From positions 1 through 47,013 of the IMG/VR virus record IMGVR_UViG_3300031787_000206: a DNA stretch of 47,013 nt. One strand, 5' to 3'. Below the pieces are notes generated by a model. That model did no database searches, was not told the origin of the DNA, and saw only the letters and a program-made list of their open reading frames with translations. Both the position numbers and the translations under genes were made by a program. Positions within the stretch are counted from its first letter, which is position 1. Each line of letters starts with the position of its first letter. This DNA comes from a virus. Shown here piece by piece: positions 10,035-46,817 of the stretch.

Positions 10035-13000
10035 ATGCCGACAATCCAGCAAATTGAACAGGCGATGATCGCCGCAGATCGTGCGGGTGATACCGCTTCT
10101 GCTCAAATTCTTGCGGAAGAGATTAGACGGTTGATGGAAGAAGCCCAACCCCGCAAACGCGGTATCAGCGGAGCGTTTCAACGAGGGCTGGAGTCACAGC
10201 TTTCTTCGGGCCGTACTGGGGCAGGTGTGTATACAGGGTCGCCAGAAGAAGCTGCGGAAGCTGCCAGAGCAGGCTTGGCGCGGCAGGAAGACATTGGTCG
10301 CAGGTACGAAGATGAAATCGGTCTGGAGCGGCTGAAGAAGGTTTACGAAGAAAAAGGTCTGCTTGCGGCAGGTAAAGAAGTCGGACGCCAGATTCCGTTA
10401 GCACTGGCAGAACAAGCCCCCCAGATTGCTGCGACATTGGGCAGCGCCAGAGTTGGCGCTATGGCGGGTGCGCCCCTCGGCCCCGCAGGGACTATTGGCG
10501 GTGGTTTGCTTGGCGCAACAATTCCATCGTTCTTAATGGCTTCCGGCTCTCAAGCAGAACGTCGGGCACAGGAGCAGGCTAAACGAGGAGAACAGGTCAG
10601 TATTGACCGAGGCGAATTGGCTACCACGGCAGTCCCCAGCGCCGCGCTGGATGTCGCGGCTACCTTGATCCCGCTTGGTAAAACGGCAGTTAGCCAGATT
10701 ACAAAAATTCCGCTAAAGGCATTTTCGGGGCGCACAGCGGCGCAGGCTGAGAAGTTAGCTAACGAAAGACTACTGGCCACACTAACTAAAGGCACAGCAA
10801 CCGGTGTCGCGGTTGAAGTCCCGACCGAAATACTTCAGCAAATGCTGGAACGCGCACAGGCCGGTCTGCCTTTAGCTTCCCCTGATGCGTACGCTGAGTA
10901 TGGTGACACGGCATATCGTGTCAGCTTGTTGGGTCCGTTGGGTGCTGCGGGCCGTTTCTCTGAAAAAGGTGCAGCGCAAGCCGAGCTGGCAGCACAACAA
11001 GCAGCCCCAACAGCAGCTACAACAACCCCAATAGAAGCACCCATAACACAAGCTGCACCTGCCGCAGAAGAAATACCTATTGAAGAGCGGCGCTTTAGGG
11101 ACATTACGCCAATATCCGGTGCGCCTGCGGCTGAACGTCGTTTTAGTGACATTACCCCAATTCCCGCAACACCTACACCTCCCGCAGCGCCTGAAAAAGT
11201 AGACATCTTCAAAATGATGGAGAGCCACGACACGCTGAAATCGTCGTTGGACCCGTTGGCAGATCAGATTTATAAAGCCCGTCAGGAAGGCGACAACGAG
11301 ACGGCGCGGACTCTCATGCAGGAGTACCGGGACAACGAAGCCGCGATGAATGCGCTGGCTACTCAGATTACGGAAGCAGGTGGTGTGCTGGAGTCGGCTG
11401 AAGAAGCCGAGGCTGCATACAACAAGCAGCTAAAGACGCTGGACAGCAAGATTGCCAAAGAACAAAACACCATCACCGAGATGAGCCGCGCTGATGTGCG
11501 CGACTACGACGCTGTCGATAAAGCTGAGAAGCGCCTTGCCAAGTTGCAGGCCGAGCGCGGCGCAGCCGAAGAAGAATTCCAGCGCAAGCGGGGTGTGTTG
11601 CGTGTAAAAGAAACACCTAAAGACGAACAGATACCACTGTTCGATACTGAAGAGCAGCAGCCCAAAGCTGAGGAAGTCCTGAAGTTCAAGACAGAAAAAG
11701 GCGAAGAGTTTACTGCGGCAGACATTGAAAAAATGACGCAAGGGCCGGTGCAGACTACGGCCTTGTCAAAAGACACCGAAAACCAGATTGCCCAGAAGCA
11801 AGCGGAAGCCGATGATTTGCTCAAGCAAATTGTGGCAATGAGTCCGCGTGTTAGTTCAGAAAACGTAGAGATTGGCGGGCCAAAACGCGCCACTGACATA
11901 GAACGTCAAAGTGTCTTGGATCGGTTAAACGAAGCGCGGCAGAAGTACCGAGACTTGCAAGAGCAAGAAGGTAAGTTGTCTGATGCATCGGCGCAGCCGG
12001 GGTACTACGACAACATGGAATCTGCCAAGGGCAGTGTGCGTCGTCAGATTATTGAACTTGAGCGTGAGCTTGAGCGCATGGCTCCGCGTAACGTCAACAG
12101 AAAGTTTTTAAAAGACTACTACGACAAGAGCACCCAGCTAAACAAAATATACGGTGAGATCGACGCGCTAAGTGCTGCGCCTGTTGAACAGACAAAACAG
12201 CCGGTTGATATTTTTGACTACGCTAATCAGCTTCGCACCGCTACGCTGAACAATGATCCCAAAGCAATCATGGCGATCATCAATCAGCTAAAGAAAGAAG
12301 GCAAAGTAATACCGGACGCGACGCGGGAACGTGCAGAGAAAAAAGCCGGTGAGCGTGCGCAGCGCGGTATGTCCGAGAAAGATAAGCTGGTTCAGACCTT
12401 GGGCCAGCGTCTGGGTTTGCCGGGGCGGATTTCGGAACGCACAGTAACTGAAGAAGAGTATCAGCGGATTGCGGACCGCATCAGCTACCTGATGGACATG
12501 GTTGATAAGCCTGTAGGTCGGGCAAAAATGTCGGTCAAAGACAAAGTAGAAAAGCTAGGCCGCGAGATTGCAGGGCTGACGGAGACACTCAAGAACAAAG
12601 ACCTACCACCCACCACACGGCAGGGTGCCAGCAAGAGCCGCAACGCCAAGGTCAAAGAGTACAACCACCTGATTGAGAACGTCATGGTACCGGCGCGAGA
12701 CGAAATCTTTGCGCTGTATCGCAGCATGTTTACGGTCAAAGAAGTTGCGCCTGTCGGTAGCGCCGAGAAGATGTTGGCGGCAGACGCTGAGAAAACCCGC
12801 AAGGATTTACTGAAAGAGTTTGAAGAGCGTGTAGAAAACTATGGGCCAGAAAGCCCGCAGGTACGGGAGTTTGTTGAGAAGAATCTGTCAGTCAAGATGT
12901 CGCCGCAATACAAGCGGTACAAGAAGATCATTGAAGGTAAAGGTATTACTGCCAGCCCCAAGCGCGTTGCTATGGAGATTGGCCGCGAGACGGACGAGTA

Positions 13001-16000
13001 CAAAAAGTTTGCCGCACCTAAAGAAAAAGAGATTGCCAAGCGTAAAGCAGCGTACGAGAAGTACGAAGCCGACGCTAAAGCTGAACTGGCTAAATTAAAA
13101 GCGCGTGTTGGTGAAACGTCTGAAGACTATAAAAACCGCGTCAACGAGTACACCAAAGGTGCCAAGCAGAAGCTAGACGCGTGGAAGAACTTTGAGAAAG
13201 CCGCGACCAAGGCAATGGACGCTAAAGCTGAAGAGCTTGGCAAAGCCAGCCCAGAGTATCGCAGCCGTAAGCTGAAGGCGACGAAGGAATACAAAGAGGC
13301 AGTTGCTGCGGGTGAACAAGAAATAGAAACCAAACGCACCACGCAAGCGACCCGCAAGATACCTAAACTGAGCCGGATGCAAACGGCTTCGGAAGAGAGT
13401 CGGGCGCGTACACGCACCATTCAGGAAAAGCAAGAACCGGGACTCCTGCCATCGCAAGCAGGCGAGAAGCCTGAAGTGCCATTTAAACCAAAAGCAGAAC
13501 CTAAGTCAGCCAGCGCCATGCTGTCGGCATTCCAAGCTGCGGCTACTAAACGGCTTAAAGAAACTGGCAAGATGCTTCCGGGTGTGGAGACCGAAAGCAA
13601 AGACCTGACGAAAGATCAAGTCAAGCTGTTGGAAGATAACAAGCTGCGCGATGCGTACAGAAATATTTCTGAAGACGATACCAACCAGCCGCTAAACCGC
13701 GCAGTAGCGCTTGCACTTGAGGTTTACGCGGACAAAACAGACGTTGTTATACGCGACCAGTTGTTTACGTCGGACGGCCAAGAAGTGATGGGGCTTGCGA
13801 CCGCACGTAAGGTTGAAATTAGTCGTAAGTACGGCTTGACGCAAGAGGTGTTGTTGCATGAAGGCACGCACTCAGCGGTCGAACGCACGATCCAGATAGC
13901 CGAAGAAGACATCACGCAGCTAGGTAAACAAGAGCAAGCGGCGTATCGTGAGCTAGTAGCGTTGTACAACGCGGCAAAGAACGACCCTGCGATTACCAGT
14001 AAGAACGCTAAGAGCAGCGTATCGGAGTTTGCTGCCGAAGTGCTGTCCAACGAAAACTTGCAGAAGCAGTTGCGCCAGAAGAAGTGGCGTGTATCAGATG
14101 CATTCCGTGGGTTCGTTAGCATTATCCTACGCATGATTGGTGTGAAAAACGTCGAGAACATGCTGGATGCGTCGGTGGCCGCTGTGGAAGCGTTGATGCT
14201 GCCAACTAGTTTTGGGCAGCAGGCAGTTGAGCAACAACGGGCGAAGCCGTTGGAAGGCATTGGTGTGGTTGAAAAAGCCAAAGGCGTGTTTGGGTTTAAT
14301 TCCCAGATGCAGCCCACGCAGTTTGCGTCTTCGTTTGTTGCGAAAGAAAAAGGTGCGGTTGATAGCTTCCGTGCCAATGCGTTGGGTTTGGCTGGTCGCG
14401 TTCAGTTTGTTGACCAGTACGCAGCGTTGTCGGACGCGCTAAGAAAAGGTGTGGATAGCGCAGTTGTAAAAGACCTTGAGGCAGAGCAAGCAGAATACTT
14501 CTTACGCTTCGGTCAGCAACGCACACAGTTTGCCACACAGTTCCTAACCAATGGCCCTGTTAAGCTGGTTGGGCAAGACACCAAGCGCGGCAAAGAATTT
14601 ACCTACGAGAGCAAACCCGGCGCTAACTTGGTGCAAATGGCAGATGCGCTTGAGAAGTCGGGTATGGGTAATGGCACGCAGTTAGAAGCAATGTTTACCG
14701 CATACATGGCAGGTAAGCGTGCCAAGCAGGTAGGTTGGAACAAACTAAATATTAGCGACCCGGCTCTTGCCGAGCGTGAGTACAACGAGGTGGTTGCTGC
14801 ACTTAACGCCAACCCGAAAGGCAAAGCTGCGTTTGAAGAAGCCGCCAAGATATACAAGGAATACAACGCAGGATTGTTGGACTTCCTCGTACAGACCGGC
14901 TACATGACCCGCGAGAAGGCTGCTGAGTTGAAGGCAATTGACTACGTGCCTTACTACCGCGTCAAGGGCGGCGAGTTGCAGTTGTTGGTGGATAAAGAAA
15001 CCCCTGTGCGTATTGCCAGCATCAAGGACCAGCCAGAGTTGCATTCGCTGGTGGGCGACAACGCGCAGATCATGCCAATCTTTACTAGCGCGGTACAGAA
15101 CACGTTTATCTTAGCTAACATGGGCTTGCGTAACCAGTCCGTTAAAGATACGTCGTTCCTGTTAAAGCGTATGGGCATCGCCAGTAAGTTGGGCGAAGGT
15201 AGTGGTCCAAGCAGCCCAGACACCGTGCGTTTCAAAGTTAGCGGTAAAGACTACTTTGCTACCATCGATACGGACGAATACGGCATTCCGGCTGAGTTGA
15301 TTGTCAAGGGCATGGAAGGTATCAAGACCACCATTCCCGCAGCAGTGCGCTTCATGGGTTTGCCTGCTGATTGGTTGCGCACATTTGTTACACGTAACCC
15401 AGCCTACGCGCTTCGCCAAGCCGTACGTGACCCGCTGACTGCCTACATGACCACGGGTGTGGATGGCATTCCTGTGCTGAACTCGATGAAAGAACTCTCC
15501 AAGATGGTGGCGGGTCGCAGCGAAGAGGAACGCAAGCTGATGGCCGCAGGCGCGATCAGCAGTAACGTCTTGACCGGTGACGAAAAGGACATGGAGAAGG
15601 CGCTGCGGGATATTAGCGCAGGTAAATCGGGCTGGACTAAGTTGATGGCGAAGGCCGATGCCTTTGCGATGCAGGGCGATGCGGCAACGCGGGCAGTGAT
15701 TTACAAAGACTCTATCGACAAAGGCATGTCGGACATGCAGGCGTATCTGCGCACACTGGAGTCGATGAACTTTGGGCGGCGTGGGTTATCGCCTAGCATG
15801 CAGATGATGTCTACTTTGATCCCGTTCTTCAACGCTCAGATTCAAGGTTTGGATGTTCTGTATCGGGCGTTTACCGGCAAGTACGGCGGTATGCCGCACC
15901 AAAAGCAGCTTGAGATCAAGAAGAAAATGCTGATGCGCGGCACGCTCATGGCGATGGCGACGTTGGCCTACGCGATGGCGATGGAGGAGGACGAAGCATA

Positions 16001-16877
16001 TAAACGCGCTAAACCCGAAGAGCGATTGGGTAACTGGTTTGTGTACACCCCGTTTGCAGACGAGCCGCTGAAGATACCAATCCCATTTGAGTTTGGTTAT
16101 GCGTTCAAAGCACTCCCAGAAGCGCTATATAACTTGGCTGCAAAGGATGAGCGCAACGCTGACATCACCAAGGGTATGATCAAGCTGGTCGGGTTGTCGA
16201 ACCCGTTTGCGCTACCGGCGGCAATCAAGCCAGCTACCGAGGTCATACTAGGCAAATCGTTCTTTGGTGGTGACATTGAATCGATGCGTGAGCAGAACAC
16301 CCTACTGCCTACCGAGCGGTATCGCGCCAGCACGACAGAACTCTCGAAGCTGATTGGTAGCTTGACAGGGGACGCAGGACTTACTCCGATCAAACTTGAC
16401 CACCTGATTCGCGGACACACAGGCGGGTTGGGCATCGCGCTGATTTCATTAGCCAACCCTATACTGAACACCGAACTCGGCAAAGATGTAGCCGAGCCGA
16501 CCCTGAAGGCAAGCAAAACACCGCTCATCGGCGGTCTATTTCAGCCGGTAGAGGGAAGGGGTACGCTAGACGCTGCGTATGCGCGTATGCTAGAGGTTCA
16601 ACAAACGACCGGGACATTCAAGCGGTTGCTTGAGTCGGGTAAGAAAGCAGAAGCCAAGGAGTTCTTGGACCAGTACCGTAACCAAATTGCAGCAATGCCG
16701 GTGTCGGGTGCGGTACAGCAGAAGCTAGGGGAGTTGGCAAAGTACCGGCGTGTGGTGCTTGAGACACCGAAGCTGACCACCGAACAAAAAGACGCACTGC
16801 TGGACAAGATTGACGCGCAGCAGTATGAAATTGCTAAACGGTTTGTCAGTCTAACCGAAAGAACCAGACCCCAATAA
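10035..16877 (+). CDS. Giant polyvalent virion protein with zincin motif
   Basis: A 2280-aa protein, the longest in the window. Its N-terminal region has a Gly/Ala hydrophobic segment at ~118-172 and two copies of an ERRF-x-DITPI repeat (starting at 351 and 367). Residues ~380-1180 are highly charged, probably coiled coil. At 1275-1279 lies HEGTH within a hydrophobic helix (QEVLLHEGTHSAVE), an HExxH zinc-metallopeptidase signature. The C-terminal third (~1770-2150: WLRTFVTRNPAYALRQAVRDP, then LSPSMQMMSTLIPFFNAQIQG) resembles the LPD38-type domain of large polyvalent proteins, which are injected with phage or plasmid DNA. It is the last gene of the rightward operon before a convergent junction. 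Inferred role: an ejected multidomain protein combining structural and peptidase functions. Confidence 0.75.
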   Translation: MPTIQQIEQAMIAADRAGDTASAQILAEEIRRLMEEAQPRKRGISGAFQRGLESQLSSGRTGAGVYTGSPEEAAEAARAGLARQEDIGRRYEDEIGLERLKKVYEEKGLLAAGKEVGRQIPLALAEQAPQIAATLGSARVGAMAGAPLGPAGTIGGGLLGATIPSFLMASGSQAERRAQEQAKRGEQVSIDRGELATTAVPSAALDVAATLIPLGKTAVSQITKIPLKAFSGRTAAQAEKLANERLLATLTKGTATGVAVEVPTEILQQMLERAQAGLPLASPDAYAEYGDTAYRVSLLGPLGAAGRFSEKGAAQAELAAQQAAPTAATTTPIEAPITQAAPAAEEIPIEERRFRDITPISGAPAAERRFSDITPIPATPTPPAAPEKVDIFKMMESHDTLKSSLDPLADQIYKARQEGDNETARTLMQEYRDNEAAMNALATQITEAGGVLESAEEAEAAYNKQLKTLDSKIAKEQNTITEMSRADVRDYDAVDKAEKRLAKLQAERGAAEEEFQRKRGVLRVKETPKDEQIPLFDTEEQQPKAEEVLKFKTEKGEEFTAADIEKMTQGPVQTTALSKDTENQIAQKQAEADDLLKQIVAMSPRVSSENVEIGGPKRATDIERQSVLDRLNEARQKYRDLQEQEGKLSDASAQPGYYDNMESAKGSVRRQIIELERELERMAPRNVNRKFLKDYYDKSTQLNKIYGEIDALSAAPVEQTKQPVDIFDYANQLRTATLNNDPKAIMAIINQLKKEGKVIPDATRERAEKKAGERAQRGMSEKDKLVQTLGQRLGLPGRISERTVTEEEYQRIADRISYLMDMVDKPVGRAKMSVKDKVEKLGREIAGLTETLKNKDLPPTTRQGASKSRNAKVKEYNHLIENVMVPARDEIFALYRSMFTVKEVAPVGSAEKMLAADAEKTRKDLLKEFEERVENYGPESPQVREFVEKNLSVKMSPQYKRYKKIIEGKGITASPKRVAMEIGRETDEYKKFAAPKEKEIAKRKAAYEKYEADAKAELAKLKARVGETSEDYKNRVNEYTKGAKQKLDAWKNFEKAATKAMDAKAEELGKASPEYRSRKLKATKEYKEAVAAGEQEIETKRTTQATRKIPKLSRMQTASEESRARTRTIQEKQEPGLLPSQAGEKPEVPFKPKAEPKSASAMLSAFQAAATKRLKETGKMLPGVETESKDLTKDQVKLLEDNKLRDAYRNISEDDTNQPLNRAVALALEVYADKTDVVIRDQLFTSDGQEVMGLATARKVEISRKYGLTQEVLLHEGTHSAVERTIQIAEEDITQLGKQEQAAYRELVALYNAAKNDPAITSKNAKSSVSEFAAEVLSNENLQKQLRQKKWRVSDAFRGFVSIILRMIGVKNVENMLDASVAAVEALMLPTSFGQQAVEQQRAKPLEGIGVVEKAKGVFGFNSQMQPTQFASSFVAKEKGAVDSFRANALGLAGRVQFVDQYAALSDALRKGVDSAVVKDLEAEQAEYFLRFGQQRTQFATQFLTNGPVKLVGQDTKRGKEFTYESKPGANLVQMADALEKSGMGNGTQLEAMFTAYMAGKRAKQVGWNKLNISDPALAEREYNEVVAALNANPKGKAAFEEAAKIYKEYNAGLLDFLVQTGYMTREKAAELKAIDYVPYYRVKGGELQLLVDKETPVRIASIKDQPELHSLVGDNAQIMPIFTSAVQNTFILANMGLRNQSVKDTSFLLKRMGIASKLGEGSGPSSPDTVRFKVSGKDYFATIDTDEYGIPAELIVKGMEGIKTTIPAAVRFMGLPADWLRTFVTRNPAYALRQAVRDPLTAYMTTGVDGIPVLNSMKELSKMVAGRSEEERKLMAAGAISSNVLTGDEKDMEKALRDISAGKSGWTKLMAKADAFAMQGDAATRAVIYKDSIDKGMSDMQAYLRTLESMNFGRRGLSPSMQMMSTLIPFFNAQIQGLDVLYRAFTGKYGGMPHQKQLEIKKKMLMRGTLMAMATLAYAMAMEEDEAYKRAKPEERLGNWFVYTPFADEPLKIPIPFEFGYAFKALPEALYNLAAKDERNADITKGMIKLVGLSNPFALPAAIKPATEVILGKSFFGGDIESMREQNTLLPTERYRASTTELSKLIGSLTGDAGLTPIKLDHLIRGHTGGLGIALISLANPILNTELGKDVAEPTLKASKTPLIGGLFQPVEGRGTLDAAYARMLEVQQTTGTFKRLLESGKKAEAKEFLDQYRNQIAAMPVSGAVQQKLGELAKYRRVVLETPKLTTEQKDALLDKIDAQQYEIAKRFVSLTERTRPQ

Positions 16878-16999: not shown

Positions 17000-19951
17000 T
17001 TAAGCTGCTGCCACGGATAGTTGATTTGTAAGCTCTTCTTCATCAATTCTGCGTGTGATCTTCAGCACCGGCACTCGCATTTGTGGACCCTTGGTACGCG
17101 ACATCATGTCTTTCTTCGGCATGTATGCGACGTTGAACTCCAACTCAAGCTGCTTCTTGAAGTCCGCATAGCCGAAGCTAAGACTGGAACAGAACGCTTT
17201 AAGCAGTCGTTCCTCGATGTAGTAGTCCACATGCCCCACCGTGACACCATGCTCGATACGTCCCATGATGTTGGAACGCGTCGTTGACGCATCGATAGCC
17301 CCACCATTACCAAGCTCTGCCAGCACACCGTCTACTGGGTTGAACTTAACAATGATGAAGTTGCCGTAGTATGTACGCGTAAAGCTGTTCAGCACATCCT
17401 CGGCGTTGCGGCTACCGGCTTTGATACTGTCGCGCATATACGCTACGACTTCCTTGTACGCGTTAATCACCGGCTCTAACGGGATGTCCACGATGTTGGC
17501 ATGCTCCTTACTCCAGAGAATACCGGCAGCGATGTTGGCACCGATACCTGCCATCCAGAAACGCTCGTCGTTCGTAGCCTTGAACTCGGTGTACATGCGC
17601 TGCACTACCTGCGGTACAAACGTCTTTAGCGTCGAGACGTTGCGCACCATGAACTCAACAAACATGTGCCCAGCTACCGCAAAGTTCTTCTGCAACGATT
17701 TGAGAATCTCAATCTCGTGCGGCTCCCATGTCAGCACATCATCGATGATGAACTCCAGTACACGGCGCAGTTCACCTTCCGCAGCATGATCCTGTGCCCC
17801 GGTGAAGTAGTCCACAACGTGCGTGTTAGATGACATGATGGCGTTCGACATCCACGTTGACAGGTTCATCCGCTCCTTGTTGGAGCCGGACTCCATACGC
17901 TCCTTGCCTCGGCCTTCTGTCATGTCCAGCGCGTGTGCTGCGAACCAGTCGAAGTCCTTGCGGTTTTTGCTGGTGATCTCATCGGTAATCAACGAGAAGC
18001 TGTTGAGCAAACCCAGACGCTGCTGCATGGCCACAGGCGATGTGCCCTTACCTGTGCGGTAGTGCACCGGATGCCCCCAGATCGAAGCCGCAGCTTCCAA
18101 CGCCAAGGACTTACCTGTACCGGAGTATGTCGAGCCAACGTGGTAGGTCAGGCCGTAGATACCCGTGAAGCGCATCAGCGGTGAACCCGCACCTGCCAAC
18201 AGAATCGCCAAGTGCTTCCACATTTTCTTGCGGATGAGCAAGTTAACGAAGTCGCGCCACGCCTCGATGCTGCCGGTGGGTTGCGTGTTAGCAATGATGT
18301 TCTCAAGCCCCGGCATCGGCACTTCGAAGTTACCGTTGGCCGTGTATATCTTGCCAGCGAACACCATCGTGTCATCCTCCTGCCAGCCGTAGCTGGTAGG
18401 CACCTTGATTGGTGACTTCTCAACGCTGACTTTCTCCACGCAAGCGCGGATGTAGTCGTACAGGTTCTTGTCGTTACCCGCTCCGAACGAGGCCAGAATG
18501 TTCTGGCTGGCCAGACTCTTTAGCGTCTCGTCTTTACTGACCGTGGACTTCTGCGGCATCGTGACCTGAAACGTCTGGTTCCCACGGATCGCCATCATGT
18601 GTACGGTGTGTTCGGTTCCGCTCTGCAAAATGTCAACCGGGAACAAGTCGTAAGGCAGCAGCATGATCTGTCGCTTGATCTTATTGCCGTCAGCATCCTC
18701 GTCTTCCTTCTCGATGAACACACCGCCCTGCGCACCATACGCATAGCCGCGTGGTGGTTCAGGCCGCAGTATCTTGCGTGCCTTGTCATCCACCGTGACT
18801 TCGATCACCTTCTCGGCAACCTCGACAGCGTATTGCCGCCCCAGCGCCAAGGGGTTGGTGATCTTGCCCCAGTGTACACACGACGTACACACGCCCGGAT
18901 TCTCGGAGTCGAACTTAGTGCAGGGGTACGGTCCTTTGATCTCCCGCAGCTTGGTCTCCATCCGGTCTTCCGAATAGGGGTGCATCTTGGATAGCCAGAC
19001 CACCGCCTTCGGCGCTTCTTCACACTTCTGCGCTATCGACAGCAGCCCACGCCACAACGGTTCCATCCCATCGTCTGTTGCGTTCTCGATGTAGTGTGCA
19101 AGCTGACCGCAGCCCGTGCCCTGCTTGGTCTTCTCAAGGATCGTCTTGAACTTCGTGACGCTGTTCTCGAACAGCTTGACCGCTGTGCCGGTGGGCGCAG
19201 GTGCCGTAGGCCGTTGTCCGGGTAGCTCAATGACGTTCGCAGGTGGCAGTGGTTTGGCCTCGTACGCCGTGCCGACTAACTCTTTGTCCACCAGCGCCAT
19301 GATGTCGTTGAAGTCGAACAAGTCGCCCTCGTTCATGAACCGCACGTTGGTTGTACCGCGCACCTTTACGCCGTTCTTCACGCCGTTATTGGTGGTGCCG
19401 GGAATACGCAGGATGCGTGACGAATCCCCCGTGACGTTCGGGTCAATCTGCAAACCCTTGACGAAGCACAGGCGCTTGAATCGTTCGGCCACAGGTTTCC
19501 ACACCGCTGCGGGCAGTGCTTCTTTCAACGGCCAGTATGCGTGTACCCCGCCGCCCGAATGAATGAACCATGGCTGACCCAGACCTGACAGACCCACCTC
19601 ATCGGCAAACTTGATAATGGCTTCGAAGCCTGCCTTGGGTGACGGGTACGCTTTGGTCTTGATTACGCCTTCAGCATCGGGTACGTCTTGTGGGTGATTG
19701 CAGTCAACGTCAATGGCAATGCACTTCACCATGTTGACGTTGGGTGATGTGCGGCTGTCGGCCTCTTTAAACGTACCCAGTGCGAAGTACGTATCGTGGC
19801 CGTTGAGCTTGCATCGCGCAATGAATGGTTCTAGTTCTTCTAAAGTCTCCTTGTACTGGTGTTCCTTTTTTCTTGTTGTAAGTTCTACGGCGCAGAAGAA
19901 ACCACTCCCCTGCGGAGGTAGAACCGCCGCCATAAAGTCAAGCGGTTGCAT
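17000..19951 (-). CDS. Primase-helicase (AEP-like primase plus DUF927-type ATPase)
   Basis: A 983-aa two-part replication protein. The N-terminal ~220 residues look like an archaeo-eukaryotic-type primase: catalytic D81-x-D83 (CIAIDVDCN), the SGGGVHAYW segment with H137, and R179/R182 in SRILRIPGTTN. The C-terminal half has a P-loop, GSTYSGTGKS, with K614, followed by SLITDE and an Asn-rich sensor-like region (STWMSNAIMSSNTHVVD), as in DUF927/superfamily 3-like helicases. It would prime and unwind DNA at the fork. AAAGGA precedes the ATG. It is the last gene of the leftward block. Length and order match phage primase-helicase fusions; assignment to a named subfamily is less certain than the dual function. 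Confidence 0.8.
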   Translation of the reverse strand: MQPLDFMAAVLPPQGSGFFCAVELTTRKKEHQYKETLEELEPFIARCKLNGHDTYFALGTFKEADSRTSPNVNMVKCIAIDVDCNHPQDVPDAEGVIKTKAYPSPKAGFEAIIKFADEVGLSGLGQPWFIHSGGGVHAYWPLKEALPAAVWKPVAERFKRLCFVKGLQIDPNVTGDSSRILRIPGTTNNGVKNGVKVRGTTNVRFMNEGDLFDFNDIMALVDKELVGTAYEAKPLPPANVIELPGQRPTAPAPTGTAVKLFENSVTKFKTILEKTKQGTGCGQLAHYIENATDDGMEPLWRGLLSIAQKCEEAPKAVVWLSKMHPYSEDRMETKLREIKGPYPCTKFDSENPGVCTSCVHWGKITNPLALGRQYAVEVAEKVIEVTVDDKARKILRPEPPRGYAYGAQGGVFIEKEDEDADGNKIKRQIMLLPYDLFPVDILQSGTEHTVHMMAIRGNQTFQVTMPQKSTVSKDETLKSLASQNILASFGAGNDKNLYDYIRACVEKVSVEKSPIKVPTSYGWQEDDTMVFAGKIYTANGNFEVPMPGLENIIANTQPTGSIEAWRDFVNLLIRKKMWKHLAILLAGAGSPLMRFTGIYGLTYHVGSTYSGTGKSLALEAAASIWGHPVHYRTGKGTSPVAMQQRLGLLNSFSLITDEITSKNRKDFDWFAAHALDMTEGRGKERMESGSNKERMNLSTWMSNAIMSSNTHVVDYFTGAQDHAAEGELRRVLEFIIDDVLTWEPHEIEILKSLQKNFAVAGHMFVEFMVRNVSTLKTFVPQVVQRMYTEFKATNDERFWMAGIGANIAAGILWSKEHANIVDIPLEPVINAYKEVVAYMRDSIKAGSRNAEDVLNSFTRTYYGNFIIVKFNPVDGVLAELGNGGAIDASTTRSNIMGRIEHGVTVGHVDYYIEERLLKAFCSSLSFGYADFKKQLELEFNVAYMPKKDMMSRTKGPQMRVPVLKITRRIDEEELTNQLSVAAA

Positions 19952-35290: not shown

Positions 35291-35307
35291 CGGGTCAGGC
35301 TGACCCG
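35291..35307. repeat. 17-nt dispersed hairpin, copy 3
   Basis: CGGGTCA GGC TGACCCG, a perfect 7+3+7 hairpin. It contains the last codons and stop of the 265-aa gene (35295), which therefore ends ...ENGSA. On the plus strand it is flanked by TTTTT before and TTTT after. Confidence 0.8.
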
Positions 35308-36092
35308 TTTTCTTCCGGCATCTTTACTACCGGTAGTTCTGCTACATATAGTTCACCCCATGTGTGTGGCACTTGCTCGTCATCGTCGAGCAGGATTAGC
35401 CAGTTCAGAATGTTCTGGGTGTGTTTCACCTTAGCTTGCGCATCGCGCTCGGCCTCGCTGGGTTGGCCTTTGTTTAGTTCGCGTATCAGGGTGAGTTCCT
35501 GCTCGGCTTCGAGAATCTCGCGCTTGGCCGTGGCGATATGTTTGATACGCAGCTTGATGTTGTCGGCCTTTGACATGGTGCGTGGGAATGGGTCTTTGAC
35601 TCTGGCCTTGGCTGCGCGGGGTATCTCGGCAAACGCTTGGCCTATCGCCCGCTTCATGTGCTCGGGAACCCAGTCCGTCCAATGCTTGCCCTCGTTGGGT
35701 ATCTCCTTGCCCTTCTCCTGCTTCAGGTACTTGGCCTGTTCTTTGGGTGTGCGTTCGCCGTAGTACCTGTACTCACGCAGCTTTTCTTTTAGCTTGGCCA
35801 GTAGCTTGGCGTATGCGTTCAACGCTTCACGCCGTTGTGGGTTCGGGTACTTCTGGCTTTCGTAGTTCAGCATTGACCGCACGCTGCGCTGCTCGTTCGC
35901 CAACGGTGTGAGTAGTTCACGCCACAGGTCTTGCACCATGCGCTTGCGTGCTGCGTTGCTTCGTACTGCGCGTTTGTGTTCGGCCACTTGTTGGCGTATG
36001 GCCTGTGCTTCCGCACCTCGGATGCCACGCTTGAGTAAGGCCGCATGAACTTCTTTGTCAGTCATGCCGATGTACAACATAAACGATTTCAT
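35295..36092 (-). CDS. 265-aa basic helical protein, unknown
   Basis: A Lys/Arg/Gln-rich, mostly helical protein. It starts MKSFMLYIGMTDKEVHAALL, then has a basic stretch (RAVRSNAARKRMVQDLWREL), a coiled-coil-like middle (LNAYAKLLAKLKEKLREYRYYG) and a conserved-looking WTDWVPEHMKRAIGQAF. The N-terminal segment has a DKEVHAALLKRGIRGAEAQA helix-turn pattern that may bind nucleic acid. Its last residues (EENGSA) are encoded by hairpin copy 3. It is the first long gene left of the AT-rich non-coding region, so it may be expressed early. No family recognised. Confidence 0.65.
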   Translation of the reverse strand: MKSFMLYIGMTDKEVHAALLKRGIRGAEAQAIRQQVAEHKRAVRSNAARKRMVQDLWRELLTPLANEQRSVRSMLNYESQKYPNPQRREALNAYAKLLAKLKEKLREYRYYGERTPKEQAKYLKQEKGKEIPNEGKHWTDWVPEHMKRAIGQAFAEIPRAAKARVKDPFPRTMSKADNIKLRIKHIATAKREILEAEQELTLIRELNKGQPSEAERDAQAKVKHTQNILNWLILLDDDEQVPHTWGELYVAELPVVKMPEENGSA

Positions 36093-36127
36093 TTTGTCCT
36101 CTTTTAAAAGGTGTTTTGGATAGTGTG

Positions 36128-36148
36128 TCCGGAAGTATCCATCGTTTT
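36128..36148 (+). repeat. 21-bp inverted repeat, left arm
   Basis: The left arm begins TCCGG and ends ATCCATCGTTTT. Its reverse complement recurs at 36427-36447 with only two mismatches, at positions 6 and 8. Confidence 0.75.
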
Positions 36149-36426
36149 GCCGAGCATGTCCACCTTTTTGGACACCCCAGAAGACGCACTGGTGCTGGGT
36201 TTGCGACGCGACAGTCCTAAGTGTTCATGGTTTTTGGAAATAGCTATACCCCTTCAAAACAGAACAAAAAGTTGAACGGGTGCGAACGCGGAAACGCACG
36301 TACTAAAACACATTTTTTACTACCCTATAGTTTTTATTTATATATATGTATATATAGGACTGTATTTATTCAGACGCTAGGATTCATGCGGGTTTTGGGG
36401 GTGTCCGAAAGTTGTCCGTAGTTGAT

Positions 36427-36447
36427 AAAACGATGGATAGTGCCGGA
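36427..36447 (-). repeat. 21-bp inverted repeat, right arm
   Basis: The right arm reads AAAACGATGGAT at its left end and GCCGGA at its right end. 278 bp separate it from the left arm. Confidence 0.75.
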
Positions 36448-36459
36448 TACCCCCCTTTT

Positions 36460-36476
36460 CGGGTCATTTTGACCCG
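36460..36476. repeat. 17-nt dispersed hairpin, copy 4
   Basis: CGGGTCA TTT TGACCCG, a perfect 7+3+7 hairpin followed on the plus strand by TTTTCTT. The stop of the 61-aa membrane protein (36464) is inside it, and the protein ends ENGSK because of it. Confidence 0.8.
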
Positions 36477-36649
36477 TTTTCTTCGTAATAGATGCGGTTG
36501 ATCCGGTTGGTCAGCATGAATATGCCCAGCGTGTACATGGGAAGCCAGATCGCGCCGTCACCCTCGATGAAGTCCAGCGGGATAACAACGCAGCAGACAG
36601 CGACGATTGTGCCGAGTAAGTGGGCGTACTTTTGAAGTCGGTTGTTCAT
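36464..36649 (-). CDS. Small membrane protein (two TM segments)
   Basis: A 61-aa protein (MNNRLQKYAHLLGTIVAVCC) with two hydrophobic segments, about 10-27 and 35-48, separated by a DFIEGDG turn, then a basic and acidic tail IYYEENGSK. The final ENGSK codons lie in hairpin copy 4. AAAGGA lies upstream of the ATG. Possible small holin-like or superinfection-type membrane protein; unassigned. Confidence 0.6.
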   Translation of the reverse strand: MNNRLQKYAHLLGTIVAVCCVVIPLDFIEGDGAIWLPMYTLGIFMLTNRINRIYYEENGSK

Positions 36650-36818: not shown

Positions 36819-36906
36819 GATTGATGCCTTTCAGGTTGATTTGGGCTGGGTTTGACAGGGATTGAAACAGCGGCCAGCCCTCCCGCTGTCACGTTCAGGA
36901 AAAAAC

Positions 36907-36923
36907 GGGTCAGGTTGACCCGA
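36907..36923 (-). terminator. Terminator after the 127-aa gene (hairpin copy 5)
   Basis: CGGGTCA GGT TGACCCG, a perfect 7+3+7 hairpin. On the minus strand it follows the stop of the 127-aa gene by 2 nt and is followed by TTTTTT, so it is a correctly oriented rho-independent terminator. A second imperfectly placed stem, ACAGCGG/CCGCTGT (36867-36889), lies just beyond. Confidence 0.75.
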
Positions 36924-37309: not shown

Positions 37310-37409
37310 GGTGTTCTCCAATCAGGTTGAAAAGGGTTGTGCCGAGGGCTTTCCCCCGACAATTTCAGTATCCCATACCCCCTGTTTTATCGGTTTATTC
37401 GGTTTATTT

Positions 37410-37426
37410 CGGGTCAAAATGACCCT
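37410..37426. repeat. 17-nt dispersed hairpin, copy 6
   Basis: CGGGTCA AAA TGACCCT, with six of seven pairs and a 3-nt loop, followed on the plus strand by TTTT. It lies between the first leftward gene and the candidate promoters, so it is not at a gene end. Confidence 0.7.
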
Positions 37427-37596
37427 TTTTGCTGCTGATTTGGCTGTTTTTGACCCCCACCATACCCCCACCCCCCAAAACTGATGATGGGTGGGGGGTC
37501 TCCATAGAACACTATTCCCCAGCCATCCCCACAACTTCCGTTATCACTTAGACAATACCCCTGATTCAAACCCCCATTTCAATCACCCCCCACAAT

Positions 37597-37712: not shown

Positions 37713-38399
37713 ATGCAACGGGCAGACCCGCTTGCACACTTGCAGAAACGACTATACACTGCGGCCAACGTGGTTACAAGACAAAGTCAAGGGAACCATC
37801 GCATGTTGGATCATCTGATTAATTTCACGCCGGATGTGGAGCAGGACTCCACAGATTTCACACGCCTTGAGAAAACCAATCCCGTCGATGTCATCGATGC
37901 ACAGGTGAAAACCGCCGATTGGTTAAAGAGTCTGGGCGCTGCAAGTAGTGACGTTGCTACCGAACTGGAAGCCAACGCTGCAAGAAAAGCATTTGGTTCG
38001 TTTATAACTGCGCAACCCCCAGAAGCGCAACAGACAGCATTAGCAGAAATAAAAACACCCGCTGCTGTCCAACATTTAGTAGGCATGCTTACCGCCTATG
38101 ACTGGGAATTCATCCACCAAGCCAAAGAGTTGCGCGGCTACACGGTGGCAAAAATCTTGGAAGACACCAACCACCCCACCGCCAGCGTGCGGCTAAAAGC
38201 ACTTGCCCTCTTGGGCAAAGTCACGGAGATTGGTCTGTTTACCGAAAAGATAGAAGTCAAAAAGACCGAGCTGTCCGACGTTGAGTTGGAAGCCCGCATC
38301 AAGGAGAAACTTAATAAACTGGCAAAAATCGTAGACATCACGGACATCAGCGATGCCCAGATAAAAGAAATCGACGATGAAGCCAGTACTGAGTCCTGA
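37713..38399 (+). CDS. Terminase small subunit candidate
   Basis: A 228-aa protein directly upstream of, and overlapping by 23 nt, the terminase large subunit, in the usual TerS position. It starts with an excellent AAGGAG. The sequence is helical: ADWLKSLGAASSDVATELEA, then a DWEFIHQAKELRGYTVAKI segment with a TASVRLKALALLGKVTEIGLF helix that matches a recurrent part of small-terminase-like proteins in metagenomic phages, and a charged coiled-coil C-terminus. A recognisable DNA-binding HTH at the N-terminus is not clear. TerS is inferred mainly from gene order. Confidence 0.65.
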   Translation: MQRADPLAHLQKRLYTAANVVTRQSQGNHRMLDHLINFTPDVEQDSTDFTRLEKTNPVDVIDAQVKTADWLKSLGAASSDVATELEANAARKAFGSFITAQPPEAQQTALAEIKTPAAVQHLVGMLTAYDWEFIHQAKELRGYTVAKILEDTNHPTASVRLKALALLGKVTEIGLFTEKIEVKKTELSDVELEARIKEKLNKLAKIVDITDISDAQIKEIDDEASTES

Positions 38400-39915
38400 A
38401 GAAATACAGGCGCTGAACCGGGTACTCCCCACACTAAGCCCCCAAGAAAAGGCAGAACTGCTACAGGACTTGGAAGAACGCGCAACCCGTGCGTCGAAAC
38501 AGATTGGTCAAGACTCCATGCTGGGCTTTGCCCTGCACGTGTACCCCGGATTTAAAATAGGGCCACATCACAGGAAGTTGGCCAAAATTTTTGAAGACGT
38601 GATTGCGGGAAAGAAGAAGCGCGTCATTATCAATATTGCACCCCGTATGGGTAAGTCCGAATTCTCGTCCTACCTGTTCCCCGCTTACTTTCTTGGCAAG
38701 TTCCCCAACAAGAAGATCATCATGGGAACCCACACCGCCTCCTTATCCGAGGACTTTGGTCGTCGTGTCCGTAACCTGATTGAATCTGATGAATACCAAG
38801 ACCTGTTTCCCCGGACGCAGATTTCTGATGATCAGAAAGCCGCCGGTAAGTGGAGTACCTCCGAAGAAGGCCAGTACTACGCAGCAGGTGTGGGTGGCGC
38901 TTTGGCTGGTCGCGGTGCTGATCTATTCGTTATCGATGATCCTCATTCTGAACAGGACGTAAAGTCAAACTCTAGACTTGCGTTCGATACGGCGTGGGCG
39001 TGGTTCCAAACAGGCCCGCTACAGCGACTTATGCCGGGCGGGGCGATCATAGTAATTATGACAAGGTGGTCGCTGTTGGACTTAACAGGCCGACTGATTG
39101 ACTACCAGACGCGCAACCCCGAGGCGGATCAGTGGGAGATCGTGGAGCTACCGGCCATATTAGAAAAAGAACAAGAAGACGGCACCGTGCTGGAGAAATC
39201 GCTCTGGCCGGAGCAGTGGCCGCTGGAGGCACTAAAAGGTAAGAAGGCCGGGATGGACCCGAGGTTCTGGAACGCGCAGTATATGCAGCAGCCGACATCG
39301 GAGAACTCGGCCATTATTGCTCGGCGGCACTGGCGGATATGGGACAAGGACGACCCGCCGCGTTGCGAATATATTATTCAGTCGTGGGATACGGCATACG
39401 AACAAAAGACATCGTCTGACTTCTCGGCCTGCACGACATGGGGCATCTTCTACAACGAGGAAGAGAACGACACGCCGCAGTTAATCCTGCTGGACGCGTT
39501 CAAGGATCGGATGGCGTTTCCAGAATTAAAACAAGTGGCACTGAAGCACTACAAGGAGTGGGAGCCGGATGCGTTCATCGTGGAGAAAAAGGCAGCAGGT
39601 GCCCCACTTATTCAAGAACTCCGCACAATGGGAATCCCTGTCCAAGAATTCAGCCCCAGCCGAGGCAACGACAAAATTGTCCGAGTCAACGCCATCGCAG
39701 ACTTATTTACTTCGGGCAAAGTCTGGGCACCGGACACCCGATGGGCACGGGAAGTAATCGAGGAAGTTGCGGCGTTTCCAGTTGGAGAACACGACGACTT
39801 CGTGGATACTACGTCGCAAGCATTGCTACGCTTTCGGCAAGGGGGGTTTATTACCCTCGACACGGACGAAAAAGACGACAGATACTACGCGCCCCGCAGG
39901 GCTGCTTATTATTAA
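38377..39915 (+). CDS. terL: Terminase large subunit
   Basis: A 512-aa packaging motor. The ATPase domain has Walker A NIAPRMGKSE (K93), a Walker B LFVIDDPH (D187-D188) and MTRW as the coupling motif. The nuclease domain has D338 in IIQSWDTAYE, a second acidic region near FIVEKKAAGAPLIQEL, and the C-terminal EHDDFVDTTSQALL. The protein translocates DNA into the prohead through the portal and cuts concatemers. Order TerS candidate, TerL, portal is canonical. The start overlaps the upstream gene by 23 nt. All catalytic motifs look intact. Confidence 0.95.
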   Translation: MKPVLSPEEIQALNRVLPTLSPQEKAELLQDLEERATRASKQIGQDSMLGFALHVYPGFKIGPHHRKLAKIFEDVIAGKKKRVIINIAPRMGKSEFSSYLFPAYFLGKFPNKKIIMGTHTASLSEDFGRRVRNLIESDEYQDLFPRTQISDDQKAAGKWSTSEEGQYYAAGVGGALAGRGADLFVIDDPHSEQDVKSNSRLAFDTAWAWFQTGPLQRLMPGGAIIVIMTRWSLLDLTGRLIDYQTRNPEADQWEIVELPAILEKEQEDGTVLEKSLWPEQWPLEALKGKKAGMDPRFWNAQYMQQPTSENSAIIARRHWRIWDKDDPPRCEYIIQSWDTAYEQKTSSDFSACTTWGIFYNEEENDTPQLILLDAFKDRMAFPELKQVALKHYKEWEPDAFIVEKKAAGAPLIQELRTMGIPVQEFSPSRGNDKIVRVNAIADLFTSGKVWAPDTRWAREVIEEVAAFPVGEHDDFVDTTSQALLRFRQGGFITLDTDEKDDRYYAPRRAAYY

Positions 39916-45220: not shown

Positions 45221-46129
45221 ATGGCTATTTCACGCGCACAACTACTGAAAGAGCTGCTCCCCGGCTTGAACGCATTGTTCGGTCTGGAGTACGCTCGTTA
45301 CGGCGAAGAACACAAGGAAATCTACGAAACCGAGACTTCCGAGCGTTCGTTCGAAGAAGAAACCAAGCTGTCTGGCTTCTCTGCCGCACCGGTTAAGAAC
45401 GAAGGTTCTGCAATCGCGTACGACAACGGTCAGGAAGCATGGACTGCTCGATACAACCACGAAACCATCGCCCAAGGTTTCTCGATCACTGAAGAAGCGA
45501 TTGAAGATAACCTGTATGACAGCCTGTCGGCTCGTTATACCAAGGCGCTGGCTCGTTCGATGGCATACACCAAGCAAGTTAAGGCCGCAGCAGTGCTGAA
45601 CAACGGCTTCAACTCGTCGTATGCTGGCGGTGACGGTCAGGCACTGTTCTCGGCAAACCACCCATTGGTGGGCGGCGGTGTTAACTCAAACATCCCGACA
45701 ACTCCTGCTGACCTGAACGAAACTTCGTTGGAAAACGCTGTGATTCAAATCGCAGCATGGACTGACGAACGCGGCCTGCTGATCGCAGCTAAGCCACGTA
45801 AGCTTGTTATCCCACCGTCACTACAGTTCGTTGCGACTCGTCTGTTGGAAACCAGCCTCCGCGTTGGCACCAACGACAACGACATCAACGCGCTGAAGAA
45901 CAACGGTTCGATCCCAGAAGGTTACGCAATTAACCACTGGCTGACCGATAACAACGCATGGTTCCTGACCACTGACGTTCCAAACGGTATGAAGCACTTT
46001 GTTCGTACCCCGCTGGCACAGTCAATGGATGGTGACTTCGATACAGGGAATGTTAGATACAAGGCGCGCGAGAGATATTCGTTCGGCTTCAGCGATCCGC
46101 TTGGTATGTTCGGTTCGCAGGGCGCATAA
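45221..46129 (+). CDS. Major capsid protein
   Basis: A 302-aa coat-protein candidate of the Mu gpT-like/HK97-fold type: MAISRAQLLKELLPGLNALF, then EYARYGEEHKEIYETETSER and WTARYNHETIAQGFSITEEA, ALARSMAYTKQVKAAAVLNNGF, SANHPLVGGGVNSN and KPRKLVIPPSLQFVATRLLE. These segments are strongly reminiscent of gpT-family coat proteins (EGFxITEE, AxxSMxxT, HPL). Placement after scaffold and decoration genes, and before a strong terminator, agrees. Codon usage is uniform and no gap or frameshift is seen. Likely the most expressed protein of the phage. Confidence 0.88.
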   Translation: MAISRAQLLKELLPGLNALFGLEYARYGEEHKEIYETETSERSFEEETKLSGFSAAPVKNEGSAIAYDNGQEAWTARYNHETIAQGFSITEEAIEDNLYDSLSARYTKALARSMAYTKQVKAAAVLNNGFNSSYAGGDGQALFSANHPLVGGGVNSNIPTTPADLNETSLENAVIQIAAWTDERGLLIAAKPRKLVIPPSLQFVATRLLETSLRVGTNDNDINALKNNGSIPEGYAINHWLTDNNAWFLTTDVPNGMKHFVRTPLAQSMDGDFDTGNVRYKARERYSFGFSDPLGMFGSQGA

Positions 46130-46150
46130 GCTAGTATTTATGCGGTATCT

Positions 46151-46226: not shown

Positions 46227-46817
46227 ATGGACTACTCTCAATACCCCACTGATCGGGCAACTGCCAAAGCAACCGGTGCCAAGTATTACTACACAGGTAA
46301 GCCTTGCACTCGTGGGCACACCACCTTGCGAAAAACCAAAGGTGCATGTGTGGAGTGCATGAAAGAAGACTGGACGTTTGACAATAAGAAACGCAGTGAA
46401 AAGCCAAAATCAGAAGCGTCAAAGGCGGCGGGTAAACGCTATTATGAGAAGAACAAAGCGGTAGTAAAAGCCCGTGCTAATGCTCGCCCACCTGAAGAAA
46501 AACGCAGACACCGTAATAAGCATAAGCAAGAGAACCCAGAGGTCTACAAAGCCTTAACTAGCGCCCGTAAGCGCCGCCATCGCAATGCCACCCCCAAGTG
46601 GGTTACTAAAGAAGAGAAGTTAGCAATACGAAAACTGTATTTGAAAGCTATAGAGCTAACCAAATTGACCGGAGAACGCTACGTGGTTGACCACGATTAT
46701 CCTTTACACGGAGAAACGATTTGTGGGCTACACGTGTTATCAAACTTAAAGATCATGACCCAAGAAGAGAACCTGAAAAAGTCGAACAAGCTGCTTGACT
46801 CCCCGCCTGCCCCCTAG
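46227..46817 (+). CDS. Free-standing HNH endonuclease
   Basis: A 196-aa basic protein. An N-terminal zinc-binding pattern C27-x3-H31-x9-C41-x2-C44 (GKPCTRGHTT, GACVECMKE) is followed by a long Lys/Arg/Asn-rich helical region and a C-terminal HNH module: V-V-D155-H156-DYPLH161-GETICGLHVL-S-N173, then ENLKKSNK. This is a typical HNH homing-type nuclease of phages. It has a strong ribosome-binding site (AGGAGG), a terminator upstream, a palindrome and its own candidate promoter, which is the profile of a transcriptionally independent insert between structural genes. It may spread into the capsid/tail region of related phages. Confidence 0.85.
   Translation: MDYSQYPTDRATAKATGAKYYYTGKPCTRGHTTLRKTKGACVECMKEDWTFDNKKRSEKPKSEASKAAGKRYYEKNKAVVKARANARPPEEKRRHRNKHKQENPEVYKALTSARKRRHRNATPKWVTKEEKLAIRKLYLKAIELTKLTGERYVVDHDYPLHGETICGLHVLSNLKIMTQEENLKKSNKLLDSPPAP

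Follow-up and report, generated by a model that had tools for sequence, protein, structure and literature searches.

A conserved non-coding element upstream of the terminase genes is a candidate replication origin in a large group of uncultured phages

The 371 bp gap between two leftward ORFs of a phage sequence of 47,013 bases is best read as the replication origin of the phage group to which it belongs, and from comparison of sequences we put the probability of this reading at about 0.6. The whole of the 47,013-base virus record is referred to here as the window. It has no end repeats and is probably incomplete, as relatives reach 60–66 kb. It encodes a terminase (38377–39915), a DUF927 primase-helicase (17000–19951), a DNA polymerase, a helicase and an exonuclease. 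A further protein of 2,280 residues (10035–16877), which contains an LPD38 polyvalent-protein domain, is probably ejected with the DNA. The element lies among the leftward early genes, and the change to the rightward late block, at 37.3–37.7 kb, is about 1 kb away; the nearness to a change of gene direction recorded in an earlier note on this DNA is therefore correct. The features of the element are as follows (positions in the window):

36093–36463, strand not assigned: non-coding element, candidate replication origin; gap between the leftward ORFs 35295–36092 and 36464–36649, kept in relatives
36126–36136, + strand: TGTCCGGAAGT box, one of the two TGTCCG[AG]AAGT boxes in the window
36128–36148, + strand: left outer arm of the inverted repeat, TCCGGAAGTATCCATCGTTTT
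36170–36178, + strand: inner stem arm GGACACCCC, complementary in the fold to GGGGTGTCC near 36399–36407
36181–36201, − strand: left, degenerate motif copy AACCCAGCACCAGTGCGTCTT, with 14 matches to the hairpin consensus, a score equalled in 2 of 500 shuffles
36210–36219, + strand: inner stem arm ACAGTCCTA, pairing with TAGGACTGT near 36355–36363
36301–36370, strand not assigned: AT-rich core, candidate unwinding element
36375–36394, + strand: right copy of the conserved 20-mer, CGCTAGGATTCATGCGGGTT, identified by a pattern scan of IMG/VR and in plasmid origin regions
36399–36407, + strand: inner stem arm GGGGTGTCC, pairing with GGACACCCC
36402–36412, + strand: TGTCCGAAAGT box, the other TGTCCG[AG]AAGT in the window
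36413–36418, + strand: TGTCCG box, from the motif count in the window
36427–36447, − strand: right outer arm of the inverted repeat
36460–36486, + strand: terminator-like hairpin CGGGTCATTTTGACCCG followed by TTTTCTTCGT, found by a scan that gives 1.1 per shuffle and so not significant alone

The outer arms described in the earlier note as 21 bp inverted repeats are real, as 36128–36148 matches the reverse complement of 36427–36447 at 19 of 21 positions, whereas the best value among 31 control stretches of the same length was 15 of 21. The repeated TGTCC boxes and the approximately 70 bp of very AT-rich DNA that it reported also hold up. There are six TGTCC/GGACA boxes in the 371 bp where 0.59 are expected (Poisson P 3.6e-5), the only two copies of TGTCCG[AG]AAGT in the 47 kb are those at 36126 and 36402, and 36301–36370 is 81 % AT, the highest value for any 70 bp in the window. 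Among relatives, the TGTCC boxes are less conserved than a 20-mer, CGCTAGNATNCATGCGGGTT, that lies directly downstream of the AT core and was missed in the earlier note. A search of the element for DnaA boxes yielded only one-mismatch matches, at chance level. Hairpins of the form GGGTCA...TGACCC, located at 36460–36476, ~36896–36915 and ~37409–37430 and in some cases followed by a T run, look like the kind of terminator that this phage and its relatives use.

Relatives were obtained from a terminase scan of IMG/VR that produced 80 loci, 47 of which include enough upstream DNA. Only loci with a motif copy matching at 13 or more of 18 positions and with an AT-rich 5′ flank were counted. On this basis, the element is present 1.9–2.9 kb upstream of terL in 32 of the 47 loci and nowhere in their remaining 296 kb, and a recognisable copy is absent from 15 of the 47. 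The AT-core type makes up 25 sequence clusters, and the same architecture built from different letters was recognised in L003, L008, L010, L025 and L028 using Blast and inspection. In two loci, L036 and L062, the motif is on the opposite strand with respect to terL. A DNA similarity search of the region against cultured phages found no match. The earlier note had named absence of the repeats from close relatives as grounds against an origin; in the relatives compared here, it is the architecture that is kept.

The motif is approximately 1.0–1.4 kb from the divergent gene switch both in the window and in five relatives of 60–66 kb. The earlier note had also suggested the cumulative GC-skew minimum as a check on the position of the origin. 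After detrending, the window has this minimum 1.0 kb away from the motif and four of the five relatives have it no more than 2.3 kb away, hence 1.0–2.3 kb in five of six genomes, but the skew is confounded by gene orientation and that of G010 fits only without detrending.

In the pattern scan of IMG/VR, at least 119 stretches of viral contigs match the 20-mer. The left copy is present in both orientations within a single cluster of 17 sequences. A weaker match, AAGCTAGTATTTATGCGGTAT, at 46128–46148 (+ strand) in the gap between the genes 45221–46129 and 46227–46817, is possibly a second site. The exact pattern was found 29 times in bacterial genomes, with about 30 matches expected in 257 Gb by a rough estimate, and a large part of these 29 may be due to chance.

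In short searches, the core of the motif, AGNATNCATGCGGGTT, was found to adjoin replication genes in plasmids. A rep gene is less than 2 kb from the core in nine of the 15 plasmids inspected (pHB2b, Polaromonas JS666 and CJ2, Massilia H6, M. litorea, two Klebsiella RepFIA plasmids, Citrobacter Y19 and an E. coli plasmid of 4,072 bp), though some of these are related pairs and the number of independent lineages is about six. Of the 513 motif matches in E. coli genomes, 504 are on plasmids, and the best-ranked 40 records belong nearly all to one 4.1-kb plasmid family. The motif is also near repB in the phage-plasmid pJN2-26.

The order in RepFIA plasmids is DnaA boxes, AT-rich DNA, motif, iterons and repE. 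The likeness of RepFIA (F ori2) to the phage element consists of AT-rich DNA, then the motif, then iterons, with the motif present as TTTATCCATGCGGGTTACAG in the Klebsiella RepFIA plasmids and as a degenerate copy, TTTATCCATGCTGGTT, at the same place in the F plasmid ori2. However, DnaA boxes, RepE and its iterons are present in F and absent from the phage, and the opposite-strand left motif copy and the long inverted arms are found only in the phage. In pHB2b, iterons likewise come directly after the motif, and in the 4,072-bp E. coli plasmid, which is of the MobQ type, the order starting from rep is iterons, AT-rich DNA, a DnaA box and then the motif, which is about 385 bp upstream of rep. 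Unlike the phage element, both of these plasmids have one motif copy, no long inverted arms and a rep gene adjacent. The recurrence in plasmid origins of AT-rich DNA, the 20-mer core and then repeats supports the origin reading. Thus, of the case for an origin made in the earlier note, the architecture kept in relatives and now this plasmid-origin layout speak for it, while the skew evidence is confounded.

Known single-strand initiation (ssi) sites (phiX174 PAS, the G4-type origin and Frpo) likewise adopt folds when single-stranded and are close to origins of replication or transfer (PMC6854812, PMC11541004), but differ in that the motif is absent from the phiX174 PAS and the G4 origin. These were considered as a source of the motif and rejected, and the matches to ColE1 and to half of R100 are weak.

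A second property missed in the earlier note is that the arms of the + strand fold as a single long rod. Using RNA parameters, the folding energy is −123 kcal/mol (z −5.2) for the + strand and −98 kcal/mol (z −3.0) for the − strand, and the over-folding of the + strand exceeds that in every other stretch sampled. Arm complementarity is beyond that of shuffles in most of the 25 clusters despite their differing letters and takes the form of a long imperfect hairpin; the stem formed by ACAGTCCTA and TAGGACTGT is rebuilt with other letters in L008, L010, L025 and L028. Where columns are not Watson–Crick pairs, G.T outnumbers A.C on the motif strand by 236 to 103, the expectation from composition being 188:144 (P 9e-7), and this bias suggests single-strand folding of the motif strand. 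Compensatory changes were seen in 8 of 113 pairs in cluster A1 (seven sequences). Some phages of the same cluster have left and right arms that no longer fully match, hence perfect pairing is not indispensable. Upkeep of a palindrome could give the same pattern of compensatory pairs and G.T bias, and template switching is a general mechanism that can keep inverted arms alike (PMC8794818).

The local hairpin around the right motif copy is weak when DNA parameters are used. It was dropped from consideration because pairing of its flanks, compared with mismatched flanks, falls short of significance in the phage clusters (P 0.058), while flank pairing in the integrase and genome matches is weakly significant (P 0.016). 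In a comparison of L048 (1375–1779) with L049 (1214–1618), one phage's left arm matches the other's right arm, which suggests that one stem of the rod was exchanged between them by recombination across the AT core.

The main rival to the origin reading, though in our judgement an unlikely one, is a stand-alone structured non-coding RNA of ~330–360 nt that would run rightward, end at the hairpin 36460–36486 and act in trans, with the motif as a protein-binding internal loop. The better folding of the + strand, the compensatory pairs of cluster A1, the preference for G.T over A.C and the terminator-like hairpin at the end are all as such an RNA would have them. However, the element matched no family in an Rfam search, a promoter scan of the element found one promoter-like match where 0.9 are expected by chance, and template switching can also keep the arms alike. 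The strand of the motif is reversed relative to terL in two loci, and one close cluster contains left copies of both orientations. Nor does a trans-acting RNA explain the presence of the motif in plasmid oriV regions by AT-rich DNA and iterons.

That packaging instead starts here, at a pac or cos site ~2 kb before the terminase genes, appears improbable. The distance to terL is fairly constant among relatives, as packaging would have it, but the motif also occurs in plasmids, among them small ones that have no packaging genes, and the site belongs to the early block, with the late block ~1 kb further on.

Outside the phage group, the motif is beside tyrosine integrases in four bacterial loci, and in some bacterial genomes the 20-mer is at the 3′ ends of tRNAs. 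Together with the occurrence of the left copy in both orientations, these neighbours raised the question of a recombination site, either attP-like or an invertible element, which we consider very improbable. PF00589 tyrosine recombinases were found in none of the 29 records of the phage group, several of which are 60–66 kb, in line with the absence of a recombinase gene remarked on in the earlier note. The sequences next to the motif include many different tRNA and non-tRNA sequences and are too varied for a common crossover core, and the motif is common to plasmid origins and present in origin regions that lack integrases; the integrase-site reading was therefore dropped. That the element is an array of early promoters or operators serving the leftward genes is just as hard to credit, since this would account for the repeated TGTCC boxes upstream of the gene 35295–36092 but leaves the long complementary arms and the plasmid-origin motif unexplained, and the promoter scan is at chance level. 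Hence, neither the promoter array nor the invertible element, both listed as alternatives in the earlier note, is borne out.

The motif is also found between or beside transposase genes (IS66, IS1634). Further copies are between small early genes of the Pseudomonas phages D3, PAJU2 and Haboob, within an extended non-coding stretch of phiEcoM-GJ1 close to its RNA polymerase gene, and, as a pair, between convergent genes in RaK2. None of these sites, nor those beside integrases, is explained by the origin model. In four betaproteobacterial genomes (L201, L204, L208 and L219), the motif is ~110–150 bp before a transposase that looks to be of the IS5 type, judged from its first residues, and there it is possibly part of an IS end.

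A search of papers by sequence gave a single relevant match, a repeat of the Klebsiella jumbo phage GBH019 that was called a putative CRISPR array (PMC8253255). It includes the same core, as CCCAGTATTCATGCGGGTTGTAGG, and related RaK2 has two copies, but these repeats differ from the phage element in lying between convergent genes without an AT core of such kind adjacent. The published repeat of 36 bases, which is without cas genes, corresponds to two motif hairpins between convergent genes (RaK2, L231:2501–2600; also K64-1 and Muenster).

If the element is an origin, the AT-rich core (36301–36370) would be the unwinding element and would melt, with the two opposed copies of the 16–20 nt motif (36375–36394, + strand; degenerate copy 36181–36201, − strand) flanking it. 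The TGTCC boxes are candidate sites that may bind a phage initiator. Once the core has melted, the flanking palindromic arms would fold, and on each strand the motif would be read by a protein as a single-strand signal for the loading of a helicase or primase. Two forks would then leave the origin. The role of single-strand loading or priming signal is proposed because the motif is beside DNA predicted to unwind, the fold has a strand bias, and single-strand signals of this kind are known from the ssi literature (PMC6854812, PMC11541004).

The motif hints at a shared, apparently undescribed start signal. Tentatively, and at somewhat less than even odds, AGNATNCATGCGGGTT may signal replication start in general, being recognised in folded single-stranded form by a conserved host factor and common to unrelated phages, plasmids and other mobile elements of the Beta- and Gammaproteobacteria, with the phages described here having two opposed copies that flank an unwinding core within a long palindrome. 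Because it occurs in RepFIA-type plasmids and, as AGTATTCATGCGGGTT, in the E. coli plasmid of 4,072 bp, the motif is directly testable in laboratory strains. If the proposal is true, a repeat published as a putative CRISPR array would receive a new label, a large group of uncultured phages would have a predicted origin, and a short searchable signature would be available for finding origin regions across phages and plasmids.
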